Source of the DNA: Herminiimonas sp. KBW02
GTDB lineage: Bacteria > Pseudomonadota > Gammaproteobacteria > Burkholderiales > Burkholderiaceae_D
Length of the DNA: 64,000 nt
Reading direction: 5' to 3'
Assembly: GCF_003852535.1 (NCBI RefSeq)
Contig: NZ_QAJP01000008.1
Span: forward strand, 68,013-132,012
The first letter of the stretch is position 1. The number at the start of each line of letters is the position of its first letter. The notes beneath the pieces were generated by a model. The model saw only the letters and a list, made by a program, of their open reading frames with translations. It was not told the origin of the DNA and searched no databases. Of the stretch, positions 54,894 through 63,266 are shown one piece after another. The position numbers were made by a program, and so were the translations under genes.

Positions 54894-56522
54894 TTATGCC
54901 GCTTTTGCCTTTACATAACGGCCTGGTGCGGCCTCTATCGGTTTGTATTTGGCATTTCCCAGTTTGCTCCTGGCTTTGACCCGTTCACCGGAATGGCTGA
55001 CCAGAAATTCGGTCCACGCCGGCCACCAACTGCCCGCCACTTCTTGCGCCCCGGCCAGCCACGACAGCGCATCCAGCCCGTCCTGCCCATCATTGACCCA
55101 GTATTGGCGGCGGCTTTTGTCCGGCGGATTGATGACGCCCGCGATATGACCGGCCGCACCGAGTACGAAACGATTCTGTTGCGGCTTTTTGCGATTCAGG
55201 ATGTTGACTGATTCATATGCACTGGTCCACGGCACGATGTGGTCTTCACGCGAACCATAAATAAAACTCGGCGCATCGATTTGCCGCAAATCGATGGGCT
55301 TGCCACCCAACATGAATTTGCCGAATTGCTTGAGGTTGTTTTCCAGATAGGTGTTGCGTACGTACCAGCAATACATGGGGCCCGGCAAATTGGTGCTGTC
55401 GGCATTCCAGTACAGCATGTCGAATGGCGCAGGATTCTCGCCTTTCAGGTAATTCGATGCGACGTAGTTCCAGATCAGTTCGTTTGAACGCAGGCTGGCA
55501 AAAGCCGCATTGAAGTCCAGCCCTTTCATCAGGCCACCACTGCCTATCTCTTGCTCGATTTCCTTGATCTTGCCCTCATCGATGTACACATCGAGGATGC
55601 CGGTATCCGAAAAATCCAGGAAGGTGGTCAGCAAAGTCAGGCTGGCTGCCGGTTCTTCACCGCGTGCGCAAGCCAGCGCCAAAGCATTGGTCAGCATGGT
55701 GCCGCCGACGCAAAAACCGAGCACATTGACTTTTTTCTGGCGCGTGATGGCTTGCGCAACATGCATGGCCTGCAATACGCCTTCCTCTATGTAGTCGTTC
55801 CAGGTCGCATGCGCAATCGACGCGTCGGCATTGCGCCAGGAAATCAGAAATACGGTATGGCCTTGCCCGACCGCATAACGGACGAAGGAGTTATGCGCCT
55901 GCAGATCAAGGATGTAGAACTTGTTAATGCACGGCGGCACCAGCAGCAAAGGTCGCTCGTACACGGTATCGGTCAGCGGCTTGTACTGCAGCAACTGGAA
56001 CAAGTCATTTTCAAAGACCACCGCACCTTCAGTGATCGCCACATTGCGCCCGACTTCGAAGGCCGTTTCATCACTCTGCGAAATGCGGCCTTTTTGCATA
56101 TCCTCAAACAAGTGCTTGAGGCCATTGGTCAGACTTGCGCCTTTGGTTTCGATCAGCTTTTGCTGTGCTTCCGGATTGGAAAAGAGGAAATTGGCAGGCG
56201 ACATCGCGTTCACCATTTGCTCCACGGCGAAGCGTATCTTTTGTTTGGCTTTAGGTGGCAGTTGCACGGCATCAGCCATTGCAGCCAGGAATTTCGCATT
56301 CAGCAGGTAGGCTGCGGCATTAAAGGCATGCATGCTGCTTGCCTGCCAGGCCGGAGCGGCAAAGCGCTTATCCGTCAGCGGCGGCAGCTGTGAGTTCAGC
56401 ATCTGCTGCCACAAGGTCATGAACTGCTGTGCATAGTCACTCTGCAGTTGCGACGCAACCGCCGGATCTATCCCCATGCCAGAGCCAAACATTGGATGCG
56501 GGGAAGATTGCTGCTGATTCAT
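54894..56522 (-). CDS. phaC: Class I polyhydroxyalkanoate synthase
   Basis: PhaC polymerises hydroxyacyl-CoA into storage polyester. The 542-residue protein has the lipase-like box with the catalytic C271 in NVLGFCVGGTML. The catalytic Asp lies in GSREDHIVPWTSAY and the His in GAAGHIAGVINPP. It is a little shorter than many class I enzymes at the N terminus. phaA and phaB are not nearby; phaR follows. It is divergent from a small membrane-protein gene. Confidence 0.95.
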   Translation of the reverse strand: MNQQQSSPHPMFGSGMGIDPAVASQLQSDYAQQFMTLWQQMLNSQLPPLTDKRFAAPAWQASSMHAFNAAAYLLNAKFLAAMADAVQLPPKAKQKIRFAVEQMVNAMSPANFLFSNPEAQQKLIETKGASLTNGLKHLFEDMQKGRISQSDETAFEVGRNVAITEGAVVFENDLFQLLQYKPLTDTVYERPLLLVPPCINKFYILDLQAHNSFVRYAVGQGHTVFLISWRNADASIAHATWNDYIEEGVLQAMHVAQAITRQKKVNVLGFCVGGTMLTNALALACARGEEPAASLTLLTTFLDFSDTGILDVYIDEGKIKEIEQEIGSGGLMKGLDFNAAFASLRSNELIWNYVASNYLKGENPAPFDMLYWNADSTNLPGPMYCWYVRNTYLENNLKQFGKFMLGGKPIDLRQIDAPSFIYGSREDHIVPWTSAYESVNILNRKKPQQNRFVLGAAGHIAGVINPPDKSRRQYWVNDGQDGLDALSWLAGAQEVAGSWWPAWTEFLVSHSGERVKARSKLGNAKYKPIEAAPGRYVKAKAA

Positions 56523-56592
56523 GCTCGCTCCTCACTTTTTCGCCATGTTTTCAAGTATCTTTGCGGTTTGCATACAAAGGCCGCAGATATCT

Positions 56593-56835
56593 ATGTACAT
56601 CGTCGCCATCGCCTGGATCTATGTCGTCTTTATGATGGCGATTACAGAAACCTCAGTCATTGCTGGAATTATGACTTTTTTACTGTACGGTGTCTTGCCC
56701 GTTGCAATTATTTTATACGTGATGGGCAGCGGAAGGCGCAAGCGCAAACGTTATGCGCAGGAAATGCAGCGACGCGAGGAACTCCTGAGACGACAGGAAG
56801 AAGCGGCGAGCGCGGAACGCCCGCCGGAAGGTTAA
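56593..56835 (+). CDS. Small membrane protein of unknown function
   Basis: From the ATG at 56593 the product is 80 residues: two hydrophobic segments (YIVAIAWIYVVFMMAI and GIMTFLLYGVLPVAIILYVM) and a highly charged Arg/Glu tail (RRKRKRYAQEMQRREELL). No family is recognised beyond a general small two-helix membrane-protein look. The longer frame from 56521 starts in the phaC start region and lacks a ribosome site. It is convergent with pgeF, 11 bases away. Confidence 0.65.
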   Translation: MYIVAIAWIYVVFMMAITETSVIAGIMTFLLYGVLPVAIILYVMGSGRRKRKRYAQEMQRREELLRRQEEAASAERPPEG

Positions 56836-56846
56836 GGAAGACAGGC

Positions 56847-57599
56847 CTAGCGTAGCCAGATCAGGGCCGCCATCCGCCCCGTCACACCATCGCGCCGATA
56901 AGAATAAAAACGCTGCGCATCGCTCACGGTGCAGGCATTGCCGCCACTCACCTTGTTTACACCCAGCCGCGCCAGCCGCATGCGCGCCAATTGATAGATA
57001 TCGGCCAGGTATTTACCGGGCTTATCCGCAATAGCCTTGAACGCCTGCTCCGCTGCGGCATCTTGCGCCACAAAGGCCTGCAATACATCGGCACCGACTT
57101 CAAACTGCTGCGGCCCGATTGCCGGCCCCAGCCAGGCATATAAAGTCTCCGCGCCGGCGGCACGCATCTGCGCCACCGTGTTATCCAGCACGCCTGCTGC
57201 CAGACCGCGCCAGCCTGCATGCGCAGCCCCGACTGCGCGACCACCGGCATCGGCAAACAGCACCGGCAGGCAGTCCGCCGTCATGATCGCGCACACTACA
57301 CCGGCTTGCGTGGTGTAACTGGCGTCGGCCTCCGGTGCACCGCTTACCTGCGCCGCATCCACCACCGTGGTGCCATGAACCTGCGTCAGCCACGCCGGCT
57401 CAGCCGGTAACTGGCGCCGGATCTGTGCACGGTTATGTTCTACATTGGTCAGTGCATCACCGACATGCACGCCGAGGTTCAGGCCGCCGCCGCCCTGTCC
57501 GTCGTCATAAGGTGCAGTGCTGATACCGCAAGGCCGCGTGGTCGCCAGCGCGCCTGTGTGCGGCAGCGAGGTGCCCCATTGCGGGAGTATCAATTCCAT
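56847..57599 (-). CDS. pgeF: YfiH/PgeF family protein (laccase domain)
   Basis: Proteins of this family have been linked to peptidoglycan editing and, in other members, purine nucleoside phosphorolysis. The 250-residue protein shows the family's metal-site motifs: LTQVHGTTVV, TADCLPVLFADAG and AAHAGWRGLAAGVLDNTV. In related genomes the gene usually sits directly after rluD; here about 4.6 kb of extra sequence lies between them. Confidence 0.93.
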   Translation of the reverse strand: MELILPQWGTSLPHTGALATTRPCGISTAPYDDGQGGGGLNLGVHVGDALTNVEHNRAQIRRQLPAEPAWLTQVHGTTVVDAAQVSGAPEADASYTTQAGVVCAIMTADCLPVLFADAGGRAVGAAHAGWRGLAAGVLDNTVAQMRAAGAETLYAWLGPAIGPQQFEVGADVLQAFVAQDAAAEQAFKAIADKPGKYLADIYQLARMRLARLGVNKVSGGNACTVSDAQRFYSYRRDGVTGRMAALIWLR

Positions 57600-57842
57600 A
57601 GTCTGCTTGCTTTCCTGTGGGTGTGTAGTCGCGAGGCCTGTATTTTATTACTCATTCCATCTTGCGCCCATCACGAGCGGTGTCTTGCATGACAACAAGC
57701 GTATACAAACAAGATTCAAGAGCTTTCCGCTAGGTTTAGCGCCGCCCGAATCAGACAATCCTCAATCAGTTTTCTGCAAGCGGCGACATCGTTCAGATGA
57801 ACACGCTTAACACTCGCACCATGAATGACGGATACCTATTTT
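57600..57842. other. Leader region of the first WG-repeat gene
   Basis: This is the divergent gap between pgeF and the first large cassette gene. It is similar to 60186-60410, sharing TTCAAGAGC, CTAGGTTTAGCGCC, CAGACAATCCTCAATCA and the last bases CTATTTTATGTTTAAAC. The conserved blocks probably include promoter elements. No separate gene is seen. Confidence 0.5.
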
Positions 57843-59438
57843 ATGTTTAAACATCCAAACAAACACTACCGCCACATATTGCTGAGCAGCCTGTTCACGC
57901 TAGCCGGCAACGTACATGCTTTGGACGCTCAAAAAGATGCGCTGGCGCTGCCTGTATGCGCCAATGACCGTTGCGCGGTCGTCAACCAGGAGGGCGTGTT
58001 GCTCATGCCTTTCGACAACCATTACGGCAACATCATCGCTGCCGATTATAGGGGCACGGTGTTTGTCGGCGACCAGGACATGTGGCATTTGGTCAGCGCA
58101 GACGGGAAAAAGGTCATCAAAGCCAATATCAGCGACCAGCTTGCTCCCCTGACACCCAACTATTTTCGCTTCGGGGCCGATGGCAAAGTGGGCATCATAC
58201 GCGGTGATGGGAAACGCATTGCAGGACCCGGGTTCGAGTACGTGTATGTCAATAGCAACAACCCCTACATGGTGTATGGGCATAAGGGAAAACAGGGCCT
58301 GCTGAATGCGCAGGGAGTAAAAATTACTGACGCGCGTTTCGACAATATTACGTCGCACAATCCGGCCGCCACACGCGCCTCACTGGTCACCGCCAGCAAC
58401 GACGATGGACAGCTGTGGTTAATCGATCTCAAAACCAATAAGGTATTGCCGACCAAAGCCGCCTCACTGGACCAGGTGCAGGATGGACACCTGGTCGCCC
58501 GCTCACAAAACAGAACACAGACAGGACTGGTCAATGAAAAAGGTCAGTTAGTGATAGATCTCAAGTACTACAGCCTGGGCACCCCAGGCGGCGGCCTGGT
58601 TTCGTTTCAGGAGCAGAACAACGGTCCTTGCGGTTACCTCAATTATCAGGGCAAGGTCGTCATCACTGCGCAATTCAGCACATGCCTGCCCTTTGGTCAA
58701 AAAGAAGCACTGGTACGTGAGAGACTTGCAAACGGAAACGCTGGCAAATTCGGCCCTATCAATCATGAAGGCGCCTGGGTACACCCGCCTTCCTATGACA
58801 GGGCGGATCTCGCCGGCCTGAGCGCGCTCGGCTTGCCGACCCAGGTAAAAGGCCTGCTATCCATCGTCGAAATGGAAAGATTTACAGCAAAGTTTGGACT
58901 CTACGATACAGACACAGGCAAGGAAATCATGCCGATGCAGTATCAATCGATAGCCGCCATCAGCCCGGACTGGTTTTCCTTCAGCAGCAAGGACTCTCCG
59001 CAAGTAAAAGTGCGCTTCATGGGAAGTGAAACCATGATGCCTGCATTAGGCATCATGGATCGCAAGGGCAAACAGCTGGTCGCACCATCCGGCTTCATAC
59101 ACATCAGCCTGGATACCTCTGGTCGCTTTTTCCAGGCACTGACTGGCATAGACAAATACAGCAAAACCGGTCTGTACGACCTCAACGGAAATCTGATCGT
59201 GCCGCCCAATTGGGAAATGCTGGATATCGATCAAGGCCACGGCGTGATCAAGGCTTATAACCGCATAGATGACGGCTCTGAAAGCGGGCTGCTGGTACTG
59301 CACGCCTTATACAGCCTCCATGGCAAACCCTTGCTAACCGTCAACACGCTGGCCTGCGGTGCGCAGCAGGCACTCAACAGCGCTGGTGCAGTGATATGGC
59401 CAGAAGATCCGGAACCATACTGCAGGCAAAAACCATAA
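57843..59438 (+). CDS. Exported WG-repeat-like protein, copy 1, function unknown
   Basis: From the ATG at 57843, the position conserved in its paralogue, the product is 531 residues. A signal peptide (LLSSLFTLAGNVHA-LD) is followed by about ten beta-type repeats of the form G-L-x-(D/N)-x-x-G-x-x-(V/I), for example GLVNEKGQLVIDLKY, GYLNYQGKVVITAQF and GLYDLNGNLIVPPNW, like WG/KWG repeats. Six cysteines, including C39-x4-C44 and a C-terminal pair, are shared with copy 2 and may form disulfides. It is probably periplasmic. An in-frame ATG at 57825 is not conserved. A hairpin and a 173-residue gene follow. Confidence 0.82.
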   Translation: MFKHPNKHYRHILLSSLFTLAGNVHALDAQKDALALPVCANDRCAVVNQEGVLLMPFDNHYGNIIAADYRGTVFVGDQDMWHLVSADGKKVIKANISDQLAPLTPNYFRFGADGKVGIIRGDGKRIAGPGFEYVYVNSNNPYMVYGHKGKQGLLNAQGVKITDARFDNITSHNPAATRASLVTASNDDGQLWLIDLKTNKVLPTKAASLDQVQDGHLVARSQNRTQTGLVNEKGQLVIDLKYYSLGTPGGGLVSFQEQNNGPCGYLNYQGKVVITAQFSTCLPFGQKEALVRERLANGNAGKFGPINHEGAWVHPPSYDRADLAGLSALGLPTQVKGLLSIVEMERFTAKFGLYDTDTGKEIMPMQYQSIAAISPDWFSFSSKDSPQVKVRFMGSETMMPALGIMDRKGKQLVAPSGFIHISLDTSGRFFQALTGIDKYSKTGLYDLNGNLIVPPNWEMLDIDQGHGVIKAYNRIDDGSESGLLVLHALYSLHGKPLLTVNTLACGAQQALNSAGAVIWPEDPEPYCRQKP

Positions 59439-59452
59439 CGCTGGCCCGCCAT

Positions 59453-59471
59453 GAGGATGCCTCGCATCCTC
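59453..59471 (+). other. Hairpin between the WG-repeat gene and the 173-residue gene
   Basis: A perfect 8-base stem GAGGATGC/GCATCCTC with a 3-base loop begins 15 bases after the first WG gene. No T run follows directly, so it may shield the upstream message or only partly terminate. It is not kept in copy 2. Confidence 0.4.
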
Positions 59472-59508
59472 CCGTTAAACCGCTTTTAAGCCTATACGAT
59501 TACAGATA

Positions 59509-60030
59509 ATGGAAACACTTGAAGAACTGCGTCTACGCATACAAGCTTGCCGCCGCGACTCCAGAAGGAAACGTACCGAGCTCTCTGACATCGCCTTCTC
59601 CCTGGACAACCTGACTTTATCTATCCCCGTCATTCCAAACGAAGTATTTCTTATCTATACCGACATACTGAGTGATGCCGTGCTGTGCGAAAAACCGCAT
59701 ACAGCCAGCTTCATCCCCGCGCTGTTCAGTGACTTTGACAAACTGTCTGCCGCCCAGCAACAGAGCTTGCTGGATATTTTCATACAGCATGCACCGCTGT
59801 ATCGCAGCCGGATCCTGCAGTTTTCCGTAGGCGATATCATCGCCAGGAAATACTCATGCGATACCGCTATCCGGACATTCAAAAAGATGTGGGAAACGAA
59901 AAATCTGCACGCGAGGGATATCGCAATTTTTGGAGCTAATGTACTCTCGCTGACCCTGCCCAGGGAAGGCCGCGAACGCAACGCGTTGCGCCGTTTCGAT
60001 CAAATAATGAAAATGGGCTCGCCATCGTAA
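59509..60030 (+). CDS. 173-residue cytoplasmic protein of unknown function
   Basis: I do not recognise this protein. It has no signal peptide. It opens with a charged helix (ETLEELRLRIQACRRDSRRK), then appears largely alpha-helical with a Phe/Leu-rich core (LLDIFIQHAPLYRSRILQF) and ends RNALRRFDQIMKMGSPS. It follows the WG-repeat gene by 70 bases on the same strand, so the two may be one transcript. A decayed remnant of the same gene follows the second WG gene, so it belonged to the ancestral cassette. The end of the gene overlaps a hairpin. Confidence 0.72.
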   Translation: METLEELRLRIQACRRDSRRKRTELSDIAFSLDNLTLSIPVIPNEVFLIYTDILSDAVLCEKPHTASFIPALFSDFDKLSAAQQQSLLDIFIQHAPLYRSRILQFSVGDIIARKYSCDTAIRTFKKMWETKNLHARDIAIFGANVLSLTLPREGRERNALRRFDQIMKMGSPS

Positions 60031-60043
60031 ATAGTGAGCCCAT
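60013..60043. terminator. Hairpin at the end of the 173-residue gene (copied rluD terminator)
   Basis: ATGGGCTCGC pairs with GTGAGCCCAT (one G-T pair) around the stop codon of the 173-residue gene. The equivalent element in copy 2 lies after rluD on the reverse strand. There it is followed by GTTTTCATTT and looks like its terminator. Confidence 0.5.
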
Positions 60044-60067
60044 CTGCAACCACAAAAAATCAGTCCA

Positions 60068-60180
60068 TCAATAGGTTTTAATACCAGCCCTAGCCACCAG
60101 CTCAGCGAAGTCTTCCGGCAATTCAGTTGGCCACGCCGCTGACCGGATGCATCAGGCCCAGACGCCGCGCATGCAAGGCG
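60068..60180 (-). pseudogene. Relic of the rluD 3' end
   Basis: About 113 bases closely match the last codons of rluD at 62238-62360 (reverse strand), including the stop, IKTY and the ELVARAG region. An 11-base deletion near 60130 shifts the frame, and the similarity stops at about 60180. It is a by-product of the tandem duplication and encodes nothing. The match continues past the stop codon through about 60013. Confidence 0.85.
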
Positions 60181-60185
60181 TTAGT

Positions 60186-60410
60186 AATGCGTGTGATGGC
60201 GTGAGGCTCATATTTCATTACTCATACCCTCTGGCACCAGCCAAGAACAGCCCCCTATACAGCGCCCCCTTGCACAAGCACATTCAAGAGCATTCCTCTA
60301 GGTTTAGCGCCACTCGAACCAGACAATCCTCAATCACTTATCTGCTCGTGACAATCTCGTTCAAATAAGCTTGCTCACCACTATCACCGTCGCTACCGGA
60401 CAACTATTTT
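60186..60410. other. Leader region of the second WG-repeat gene
   Basis: No gene is seen. The sequence aligns with the leader at 57616-57842 and joins the rluD relic at its left end. A 73-residue open frame here reads across the relic junction and is not supported. Confidence 0.5.
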
Positions 60411-62006
60411 ATGTTTAAACCTCCAAGCAAGCACTATGTGCTGCTATTACTGGCAAGTCTGTTTACGTTAAGCAGCAACGTGCTTGCCGAGAGCCCGGAA
60501 GAAAATGCGCTGGCGCTACCCGTATGCGTCAATGGCCGCTGTACGGCAGTCGATCAGAATGGCAATTTGCTCATGCCTTTCGACAATCGCTACAGCAATG
60601 TGATTGCGGCAAATTATAAAAACACGATTTTTGCCGGCAAGCAGGGGATGTGGCATCTGGTCAGTGCCGATGGAAAAACAGTACTCAAAGCCAATATAAG
60701 CAAGCAGCTTACACCTCTCACCCCAAACTACTTCCGCATCGACGAAGACGGCAAAGCGGGCATCATACGCAGTGATGGAAAACGCATCGCAGCGCCCAGG
60801 TATGACTACATACATGTCGAACACAACAATCCATACATGGTTTACGGACTCAAGGGAAAACAGGGCCTGCTGAATGCGCATGGAGAAAAAATTACCGAGG
60901 CGCGCTTCGACAGTATCCTGTCACGCAATTCAGCTACAGAACACGCTTCACTGGCCATCGCCAGAAACGACGACGGGCGACTATGGCTGATTAATCTCAA
61001 GACCAGGCAGGTAATACCGACCACAGCCACCTCTCTGGAAGATATGGAGGATGGACATCTAGTAGCCAAATCGCGGAATGGACTGCGCACGGGACTGGTC
61101 AATCAACAAGGCCAGGTGGTTATAGATATCGAGTACGTCAAGCTGGGCCTACCGAGCGGCGGTCTTGTTTCATTTCAGAGGGAGTACAACGAACCTTGTG
61201 GCTATCTTGATTATCAGGGCAAGGTAGTGATCGCCGCACAATTCAGCGAGTGCCTGCCCTTCGGTCAAAAAGAAGCGCTGGTGCGTGAGCGACACGCAAA
61301 TCCACTCGCCGGAAAATTCGGCCCTATCAATCGTCAAGGCGCATGGGTACGACCGCCCTCCTATGACAAGGCGGATCTATCTGGCCAGTCCATCTTCGGC
61401 ATCCCAACACCGGTACCGGGTCTGCTGTCTATTGCCAAGGTAGATGAATTCGCAACAAAGTTTGGACTCTACGATACAAACGAGGGTAAGGAAATCATAC
61501 CCATGCAATATCAATGGGTAGCTGCTATCAGCCCCGACTGGTTTGCTTACAGCGACGACGATTCACCGCAAGTAAAAGTGCACTTCTTAAGGAGCGAAGC
61601 CCTGGCACCAGCACAAGGCATCATGGACCGCATGGGCAAAGCGCTGGTTGCCCCTTCGGGCTTCGTCTATATTAGCCTTGATCCCTCGGGGCATTTTTTC
61701 CGGGCATGGACCGGCATAGACAAAAAAAGGAAAATTGGACTGTATGACCTCAACGGAAATCTGATCATCCCACCCAATTGGGAAATGCTAAATATCGATC
61801 ATCGCCACGGCGTCATCCAGGCTTATGCCCGTATAGATGACACTGCGGAGAACAACTTGCAAGCGCTTTACGCCTTGCACAACATGCAGGGCAAGCTCTT
61901 GCTAAGCATCCGTACGCTGGTATGTGGTGCGCAGCAGGCCATCGACAGCGCTGGTGCCGTGATATGGCCCGAGGATCCGGAACAATACTGCACGCAGCGA
62001 CCTTAG
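60411..62006 (+). CDS. Exported WG-repeat-like protein, copy 2, function unknown
   Basis: This paralogue of the protein at 57843 has exactly the same length (531 residues), aligns without gaps by eye, and is about two-thirds identical. A signal peptide (LLLASLFTLSSNVLA-ES) is followed by the same repeat series (GLVNQQGQVVIDIEY, GYLDYQGKVVIAAQF, GLYDLNGNLIIPPNW) and the same six cysteines. The frame is open throughout, which suggests selection on both copies. Its second gene (the 173-residue protein) is only a remnant. Function and partners are unknown. Confidence 0.82.
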   Translation: MFKPPSKHYVLLLLASLFTLSSNVLAESPEENALALPVCVNGRCTAVDQNGNLLMPFDNRYSNVIAANYKNTIFAGKQGMWHLVSADGKTVLKANISKQLTPLTPNYFRIDEDGKAGIIRSDGKRIAAPRYDYIHVEHNNPYMVYGLKGKQGLLNAHGEKITEARFDSILSRNSATEHASLAIARNDDGRLWLINLKTRQVIPTTATSLEDMEDGHLVAKSRNGLRTGLVNQQGQVVIDIEYVKLGLPSGGLVSFQREYNEPCGYLDYQGKVVIAAQFSECLPFGQKEALVRERHANPLAGKFGPINRQGAWVRPPSYDKADLSGQSIFGIPTPVPGLLSIAKVDEFATKFGLYDTNEGKEIIPMQYQWVAAISPDWFAYSDDDSPQVKVHFLRSEALAPAQGIMDRMGKALVAPSGFVYISLDPSGHFFRAWTGIDKKRKIGLYDLNGNLIIPPNWEMLNIDHRHGVIQAYARIDDTAENNLQALYALHNMQGKLLLSIRTLVCGAQQAIDSAGAVIWPEDPEQYCTQRP

Positions 62007-62025
62007 CACTTGCCACCCGTCGCGA

Positions 62026-62200
62026 GCATGCCCCGCTTTACCGTAACCAGATTTTGTAATTCTCCGCAGGCGACATCGTCGCCAGAAATATTGCACACTA
62101 TGGCGCTAATGTACTCTCACTGACCTTACCCAAGGCCGGCAAGGAACGCAATGCACTGCGGAATTTGATCCTGTAAATGAAAACGGGCTCACCATCGTAA
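62026..62200 (+). pseudogene. Remnant of a second 173-residue gene
   Basis: The stretch aligns with 59786-60030 of the intact gene. The codons matching LYRSRILQFSVGD read LYRNQIL then TAA, so CAG has become a stop. About 80 bases are missing after the GDIVARN codons, and everything before base 62026 (more than half of the gene) is gone. The last codons and the stop are still recognisable. It is not expressed as a protein. Confidence 0.82.
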
Positions 62201-62211
62201 ATAGTGAACCC
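62185..62211 (-). terminator. Probable terminator of rluD
   Basis: On the reverse strand GGGTTCAC pairs with GTGAGCCC (one mismatch) across an about 11-base loop, followed by GTTTTCATTT, about 27 bases after the rluD stop. The copy at 60013-60043 has a tighter stem. Confidence 0.55.
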
Positions 62212-62237
62212 ATCTGCAACCACAAAAAATCAGTCCA

Positions 62238-63266
62238 TCAATAGGTTTTAATACCAGCCCTAGCCACCAGCTCAGCGAAGTCTTCCGGCAACTCGGTTGA
62301 CCATTCCAGCGGCTCACCGCTGACTGGATGCATCAGGCCGAGGCGCCGTGCATGCAAGGCCTGACGCGGGAATGCCGTAGTCAGATGCTGCTTGCCATAC
62401 AAACCGTCGCCCACCAGCGCAAAACCTATCGATTGCATGTGTACGCGGATCTGATGCGTCCGGCCGGTTTCCAGCCGGCATTGCATCAGGCTGACCGGAC
62501 GGCCATCCAGCATGCCGGTTGCCAGGCGCTGGTAATGCGTGATCGCTGGCTTGGCAGTCAGATTTTCCGATACCGCCATCTTGATGCGGTCACGTGCATG
62601 GCGACCGATGGAAGCATCGATCTTGCCGGTAATGTTGGGCGTGCCCCATACCAGCGCCAGGTATTCACGCTTGACAGTACGTGCCTGCAACTGGCGTACC
62701 AGGTCGGTATGTGCGATCAGGGTCTTGGCCACCACCATCAGACCACTGGTGTCTTTATCCAGACGATGCACGATGCCGGCACGTGGCACACCGGAAATTG
62801 ATGGCCAATAATGCAACAAACCATTCAGCAAGGTGCCCGACCAGTTCCCTGCGGCCGGATGCACCACCAGACCGGAAGGTTTGTTAATCACCAGCACTTC
62901 GCTGTCTTCGTGCACGATGACCAGATCCATGGCTTCCGGCTTGAAAGCCTGCTCTTCAGGCGCAGGCTGCGGGTGAATGACGACCTTTTCATCGCCATAT
63001 ACCGTCATTTTCGCGCGGGCAACTTCGCCATCCACGCTGACGTGACCACCATCTATCCATTGCTGCATGCGGCTGCGCGAATATTGCGGAACCAGGGTGG
63101 AAAGTACTTTGTCCAAACGGACGCCGCAGACTTCCGGGCCTAACTCAAGAGCGATCGGCGGCAGTTCCAGCGCCAGATCGTCGCCATCATCCACGCCGTC
63201 CAGATCACTTTCGGGCATGGTTTTATTCAAAATCGGTGTTTCGGTTGGTATCACTACAAGTCCCAT
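62238..63266 (-). CDS. rluD: 23S rRNA pseudouridine synthase RluD
   Basis: RluD makes pseudouridines 1911, 1915 and 1917 in helix 69 of 23S rRNA. The 342-residue protein has an acidic N-terminal extension, an S4 RNA-binding domain (about 47-105, VRLDKVLSTLVPQYSRSRM) and the catalytic domain with D170 in GIVHRLDKDTSGLMV. The first Met at 63266 is used; Met17 (63218) is an alternative start. It is divergent from bamD across 44 bases, the usual arrangement, and its 3' end is copied in the relic at 60068-60180. Confidence 0.96.
   Translation of the reverse strand: MGLVVIPTETPILNKTMPESDLDGVDDGDDLALELPPIALELGPEVCGVRLDKVLSTLVPQYSRSRMQQWIDGGHVSVDGEVARAKMTVYGDEKVVIHPQPAPEEQAFKPEAMDLVIVHEDSEVLVINKPSGLVVHPAAGNWSGTLLNGLLHYWPSISGVPRAGIVHRLDKDTSGLMVVAKTLIAHTDLVRQLQARTVKREYLALVWGTPNITGKIDASIGRHARDRIKMAVSENLTAKPAITHYQRLATGMLDGRPVSLMQCRLETGRTHQIRVHMQSIGFALVGDGLYGKQHLTTAFPRQALHARRLGLMHPVSGEPLEWSTELPEDFAELVARAGIKTY

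Follow-up and report, generated by a model that had tools for sequence, protein, structure and literature searches.

What are two tandem copies of one gene pair doing between pgeF and rluD, and do the two genes form a system peculiar to the lineage that carries them? The question is posed by a 64,000-nucleotide stretch of DNA from Herminiimonas sp. KBW02 (the window; its genome is referred to here as G000), in which the pgeF-rluD interval measures 4.6 kb. A reading of the window made from the sequence alone (the sequence-only reading) had taken this interval for a duplicated cassette encoding an undescribed, exported repeat protein and a small partner, and hence for a lineage-specific system. 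The analysis described here, which drew on related genomes including the nearest congener by rluD (G003, 96%), indicates that the locus is real, though a fairly ordinary accessory one. The large gene belongs to a protein family with relatives in other genera; it is the small gene that is restricted.

Two tandem units and their history

The first unit consists of a gene for a 531-residue WG-repeat protein (WG1), a gene for a 173-residue protein (S173) and a copied rluD tail, whilst the second consists of another 531-residue WG gene (WG2) and a decayed S173, adjoining the genuine rluD. The same order (upstream block, WG gene, S173 or its remnant, rluD tail) is followed along both units. Direct repeats join the units over 300 nt (74% identity), 128 nt (95%), 81 nt (74%), 51 nt (75%) and 44 nt (91%), and the WG1 and WG2 proteins, both encoded by open frames, are 68% identical; these repeat families and this level of identity rule out a chance repeat. 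The rluD 3' end is found at 60068-60179 as well as at 62238-62360, with the repeated tail beginning at 60006 and 62176, respectively, and the blocks upstream of the two WG genes are 85% identical, against 55-63% in the flanking bins. Direct repeats, tblastn and translation thus bear out the two-unit duplication with its copied rluD tail proposed in the sequence-only reading, and we are highly confident of the anatomy, which is as follows (window coordinates, strand, feature and evidence; ORF, open reading frame).

56847-57599, minus: pgeF, left flank of the insertion (ORF; order conserved in 12 of 12 congeners)
57714-57768, plus: conserved sequence before WG1, putative promoter or leader (repeated at 60281-60337; weaker match before S173 of G003)
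57843-59438, plus: WG1, exported WG-repeat protein, 531 residues (PF14903, 55 bits; signal peptide by reading, without a lipobox)
59509-60030, plus: S173, probably cytosolic all-helical orphan of 173 residues (ORF; 84% identical G003 orthologue; dN/dS 0.147; helical model)
60013-60043, no strand assigned: hairpin around the S173 stop codon, possible rluD terminator (fold z -4.05; second copy at ~62183-62213, z -5.52 on the rluD strand)
60068-60179, minus: copied, incomplete rluD 3' end (repeat families D2 and D7; tblastn; translation)
60281-60337, plus: conserved upstream block of unit 2 (identity to the unit 1 block; alignment to G003)
60411-62006, plus: WG2, second exported WG-repeat protein, 531 residues (PF14903, 78.8 bits; 68% to WG1; AlphaFold2 model)
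62027-62200, plus: decayed second copy of S173 (comparison with S173; translation)
62238-63266, minus: rluD, right flank of the insertion (ORF; found in the genus genomes; tblastn)

The claim that both large genes stayed open whilst one small gene decayed is confirmed by the ORFs: the second S173 survives only as a remnant (~62027-62200) that has lost its N-terminal half, carries an internal deletion and contains two in-frame stops. The length of 531 residues given for the first large gene is right if translation begins at the ATG at 57843, which matches the WG2 start, but the frame is open from 57825 and its first ATG would give 537 residues. The ratio of nonsynonymous to synonymous divergence (dN/dS) is 0.295 (0.230-0.382) between WG1 and WG2 and 0.147 (0.090-0.270) between the S173 genes of G000 and G003, which points to purifying selection on all three open genes. 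Faster evolution of WG2 was considered (branches of 0.31 against 0.15) and set aside, the site counts being 16 against 9 (p 0.23) and 46 against 44 (p 0.92).

How the locus came about can be judged from the same site in other genomes. Present in all 13 genomes of the genus, rluD is adjacent to pgeF in each of the 12 congeners (tblastn with the window's genes against 13 intervals), and in 11 of these the gap is ~10-110 bp, so the sequence-only reading was right that the two genes are neighbours in relatives. In the twelfth, G003, S173 alone lies between them, without a WG gene; the whole unit is absent from 11 of the 12 congeners. Directly before S173, G003 has a sequence that matches the block upstream of WG: the G003 interval aligns to the unit 1 and unit 2 blocks with local scores of 33 and 44, where 500 mononucleotide shuffles reached maxima of 26 and 28. 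We read G003 as having lost its WG gene; the alternative is that the G000 line gained WG by an insertion behind the block.

The age of the duplication bears on this choice. Between WG1 and WG2, synonymous divergence (dS) is 0.714 (0.583-0.866); four flanking genes compared between G000 and G003 give 0.561 (0.498-0.636), and the WG value is the larger of the two in 97% of bootstraps. By this measure the duplication is about as old as the G000-G003 split, and probably older, which favours loss of WG in G003. Within the S173 part (59788-60030), G003 agrees with copy 1 at 29 sites and with copy 2 at 13, the two copies agreeing with each other at 8, in a count that omits the stretch before the homologous start of the remnant (a further 10 sites uniting G003 with copy 1 and 3 uniting it with copy 2); as decay lengthens the branch of copy 2, this count alone cannot date the duplication. 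Starting at 60045, copies 1 and 2 of G000 agree with each other at 28 sites against 3 and 3, and they are identical (100%) over 60060-60119. We read this as a sign that the rluD tail was homogenised later, perhaps by gene conversion.

On the other side of pgeF, between that gene and phaC, lies a 104-residue ORF (window 56521-56835) for which all 12 congeners gave a match and Pfam none above the cut-off.

The WG proteins and their relatives

WG1 (55 bits) and WG2 (78.8 bits) both exceed the curated cut-off of 25.6 bits for PF14903 (WG_beta_rep), and both N-termini read as signal peptides (here and below, signal peptides and export were judged by reading N-termini), in agreement with the exported repeat protein of the sequence-only reading. 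They are, however, neither undescribed nor lineage-specific. Besides belonging to PF14903, they have 12 full-length relatives, 32-37% identical to the window copies, that were recovered by a single scan of genome contigs, a scan that will undercount relatives, since it required an exact match to a short peptide pattern. Nine of these are in records named Pseudomonas, the others being in a Rhodanobacteraceae strain, in Janthinobacterium GW458P and in a record named Pantoea; one further full-length match (37.6% identity) is in a phage record. Amongst 294 genomes of the family, a full-length WG protein was found in two (G000 and Janthinobacterium G017) and short WG-repeat matches in 12 others; samples of the genus Pseudomonas gave a relative in 2 of 25 genomes (both seeds) and in 9 of 199 (one seed), and a phylum-level sample of 299 genomes gave a match at E<=1e-40 in G000 only. 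Sampled genomes were drawn evenly from larger groups, which makes absences weak. No WG relative was confirmed in viral contigs, and partial or distant WG-repeat matches on plasmids (H1-H9), in phages (H11-H13) and in the family (L004-L019) were not used. In a tree of the full-length proteins the Janthinobacterium sequence joins the P. putida group (support 100/99), apart from the window pair, which forms a long branch of its own; the tool warns that the placement of long rows, this pair included, is unsure.

In all 12 relatives recovered by the scan, a cysteine ends the signal peptide, and 11 of them fit the lipobox pattern, the Rhodanobacteraceae protein reading SAGC; eight extra loci (L071, L076, L077 and L078 among them) lie outside this count. 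Aligned with these 12, WG1 and WG2 have no cysteine at the end of the signal peptide and do not fit the lipobox pattern. The window copies thus appear to be homologues of a lipoprotein group and yet, by the lipobox test, not lipoproteins themselves; with the lipobox cysteine lost, the prediction for both is a soluble protein that stays in the periplasm or is released. Six cysteines are invariant in 14 of 14 sequences aligned end to end (WG1, WG2 and the 12 relatives), consistent with an oxidising compartment, and they probably form three disulfides.

The AlphaFold2 model of WG2 is nearly all beta, with strands throughout (pLDDT 86.2, pTM 0.80). A Foldseek comparison with the PDB gave a best E of 2.1e-10 and query TM-scores of 0.16-0.40 among the 50 matches listed, most of which we take to be propeller-bearing proteins. 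VIA-align returned Z-scores of up to 9.3, with eIF2A (3wj9) at Z 7.9 and eIF3b (4nox), a nine-bladed propeller, at Z 7.4, covering ~31-503. Judging from the model, WG1 and WG2 may be all-beta, propeller-like proteins.

The genes around the relatives differ from place to place (ORFs in the GC-rich loci were called by codon-position GC, with a rough caller). In the P. putida group the WG gene has cytochrome b561 and DUF1853 as neighbours; at L079 it has genes for a HAD hydrolase and a quinohemoprotein amine dehydrogenase, and at L080 one for the same HAD family; there is an FKBP gene in the phage Y1 record and a major facilitator superfamily (MFS) gene in PA7. The Janthinobacterium relative (L050, G017:C77:92000-109411) lies amongst genes for AlpA, ParB/KorB and an IrrE-like peptidase and a transposase fragment, in a mobile-looking region, and the gene next to the Rhodanobacteraceae relative (L053, 9577-10974, minus strand) encodes two phospholipase-D-like domains. 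A tblastn search for S173 in 17 stretches around WG relatives gave nothing convincing, with the G003 control returning E 2.5e-96; the best match, 34 residues in L054 (E 0.072), was taken as noise. S173 was also found in none of six genomes carrying WG relatives, in a search without a positive control. The WG gene looks to be patchy in distribution, probably transferred and without a fixed partner.

Two of the records are of interest for other reasons. L051 (OQ572403.1, 79475-95804), entitled 'UNVERIFIED: Pseudomonas phage Y1', carries genes of a chromosomal kind (for FKBP, a response regulator and a WG lipoprotein, with an ORF similar to the PA7 MFS gene), and this part of the record may come from the host and not from a phage. 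L056 (NZ_VWXI01000004.1) is named Pantoea sp. Cy-639, but its genes are ordered as in the P. putida group, in which its WG protein nests; the organism name may be wrong.

The small protein S173

Here the idea of lineage restriction, which fails for the large protein, holds: S173 was seen in 2 of the 294 family genomes only, G000 and G003, the two orthologues being 84% identical. It has no relative in Pfam or PADLOC and no convincing one among PDB sequences, and it was not found in the plasmid, phage or viral-contig collections, nor in PHROGs. Matches in NCBIfam (E 0.06) and PHROGs (E 0.05) were taken as noise, as was an order-level match in G363 (E 0.006) that contains four in-frame stops. No signal peptide could be read at its N-terminus and the protein is probably cytosolic. 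Its model, built from two sequences and of moderate confidence (pLDDT 71.6), has nine helices in series, suggesting a helical, HEAT/ARM-like fold. As G003 has S173 without WG, the two are not an obligate pair; with no convincing S173 near the WG relatives either, the 'system' of the sequence-only reading is weakly founded.

The stop codon of S173 is in the loop of the strong hairpin at 60013-60043, which has a T run on the rluD strand and was copied with the unit. Although not listed by a consensus terminator scan, the hairpin is possibly the terminator of the convergent rluD, and the 3' end of the decayed S173 may have been kept beside rluD for this reason.

Candidate functions and known systems

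Our preferred explanation, to which we give a probability of about 0.5 as a whole, combines an accessory, duplicated locus, a binding propeller and an independent S173. A two-gene unit would have been duplicated in tandem to form an accessory locus between pgeF and rluD. WG1 and WG2 would be exported propellers that have lost their lipid anchor and are soluble in the periplasm or released; there the propeller would bind a ligand or partner in the envelope, non-enzymatically, with the two diverged copies binding related but different partners. S173 would be a cytosolic protein whose expression was at first driven from the region upstream of WG and which can act independently of WG, and we infer that WG1 and S173 form an operon. 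The binding or scaffold role in the envelope, taken by itself, is a tentative proposal that leans on the modelled fold.

Several results weigh against this explanation. A promoter scan of the locus found 3 sites against 4.0 expected, none of them outstanding, which does not favour an operon. BLAST of the WG1 upstream region across the genus reported the two window copies only and not the G003 locus, so that the upstream-block match there is short and diverged and is seen by alignment alone. The propeller matches are modest, with low TM-scores and Z mostly below 8, values that the tool calls common. Finally, the literature searched (open library only) yielded no tested function for a WG relative, so that binding is deduced from the fold alone. 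Promoter and terminator consensus scans of the locus were at chance level and the RNA folding of both upstream blocks was ordinary (z -1.00 and -0.52).

From gene names and order, we take PA14_16330, PA3716 and the WG gene of PA7 to be one gene or its orthologues. In one study, an rsmA comparison has PA14_16330, the gene of a WG-repeat lipoprotein of P. aeruginosa, among its top genes, alongside genes of the type VI secretion system (T6SS) (PMC8855297); in another, a table row on adherent PAO1 shows a difference in PA3716 abundance between materials (PMC5541441). PF14903 stands in a table of repeat families modelled without known structure (PMC8078820), and such WG-repeat genes are mentioned as markers only in the accessible parts of two further papers (PMC5350142, PMC8767351).

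Of the rival explanations, the one that survives best, unlikely as we consider it, is that all three proteins confer immunity, WG1 and WG2 in the periplasm and S173 in the cytosol, the duplicates tracking different competitor toxins. Exported, duplicated, patchy genes and a retained lone small gene fit orphan immunity genes, and the Janthinobacterium relative is in a mobile-looking region (AlpA, ParB/KorB and transposase genes); the phospholipase-D-like neighbour in Rhodanobacteraceae could be an effector, or else a housekeeping enzyme. Of 14 carriers outside the genus, 13 have TssB, and PA14_16330 is listed with T6SS genes in the rsmA comparison (PMC8855297). However, TssB (PF05591), the one T6SS gene searched for, was not found in G000, G003, G008 or the Rhodanobacteraceae carrier G960. 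Its absence from G000 counts against immunity to the cell's own T6SS here, though not in other carriers, and that version was downgraded. Moreover, PADLOC gave no family at E<=1 for WG1, WG2 or S173, no toxin family appeared amongst those Pseudomonas neighbours, a part of the whole, that were scanned with Pfam, and a Janthinobacterium neighbour of 304 residues, suspected of being Imm-like, has no Pfam match. The suggestion that two of the Janthinobacterium neighbours resemble Imm49 and ART proteins found no Pfam support and was dropped.

It is quite improbable that the insertion is neutral or decaying, with little function left: the second S173 has decayed and 11 of 12 congeners lack the unit, but dN/dS values of 0.295 (WG1/WG2) and 0.147 (S173) at dS 0.6-0.7, with both WG frames open, argue otherwise. 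A bolder variant, and a long shot, would have the propeller of a lipoprotein become a soluble sensor or binder in the periplasm, duplicated for two ligands and coupled to S173 as a new, helical adaptor in the cytosol that later became useful alone, making a lineage-restricted, two-compartment pair. Hardly credible is a toxin or bacteriocin-like WG protein with S173 as antidote, for although the genes are adjacent in the same orientation and G003 keeps S173 without WG, as happens with orphan antidotes, the WG relatives have no detectable S173 (neither in the 17 stretches, where the control was positive, nor in the six genomes, where there was none), Pfam, NCBIfam and PADLOC searches revealed no toxin domain, and WG2 persists beside a broken S173, even if unit 1 could serve in trans.

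Whichever role applies, the two diverged WG copies, both under selection in a small genome where TssB was not found, provide a handle on WG function; G003, with S173 but no WG, and the natural change from lipoprotein to soluble protein are further handles on the WG family. S173 itself offers a modest example of purifying selection acting on a restricted gene.

How, then, does the locus compare with what is known? Both large window proteins share the repeat of PF14903 and score above its cut-off, but that family defines the repeat only, and WG1 and WG2 fall in a narrower, full-length group of ~530-565 residues with six invariant cysteines. The Pseudomonas WG-repeat lipoproteins (L052 of PA7, L054 of the P. 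putida group and others) resemble the window copies in being full-length and colinear, 32-37% identical and equipped with the six cysteines; they differ in having a lipobox-like cysteine and in being single copy in the loci seen, whereas the window copies lack that cysteine, are duplicated and lie beside S173. PA14_16330 likewise shares WG repeats and an export signal with WG1 and WG2, in the wording of its source, but is a lipoprotein (PMC8855297). S173, for its part, shares serial helices with HEAT/ARM-like helical solenoids, its best VIA-align match (Z 11.7) being to a designed helical repeat; it has no sequence match to them, its best Foldseek E is 0.098 (none at <=0.001), and Z-scores under ~13 are common for helical repeats.

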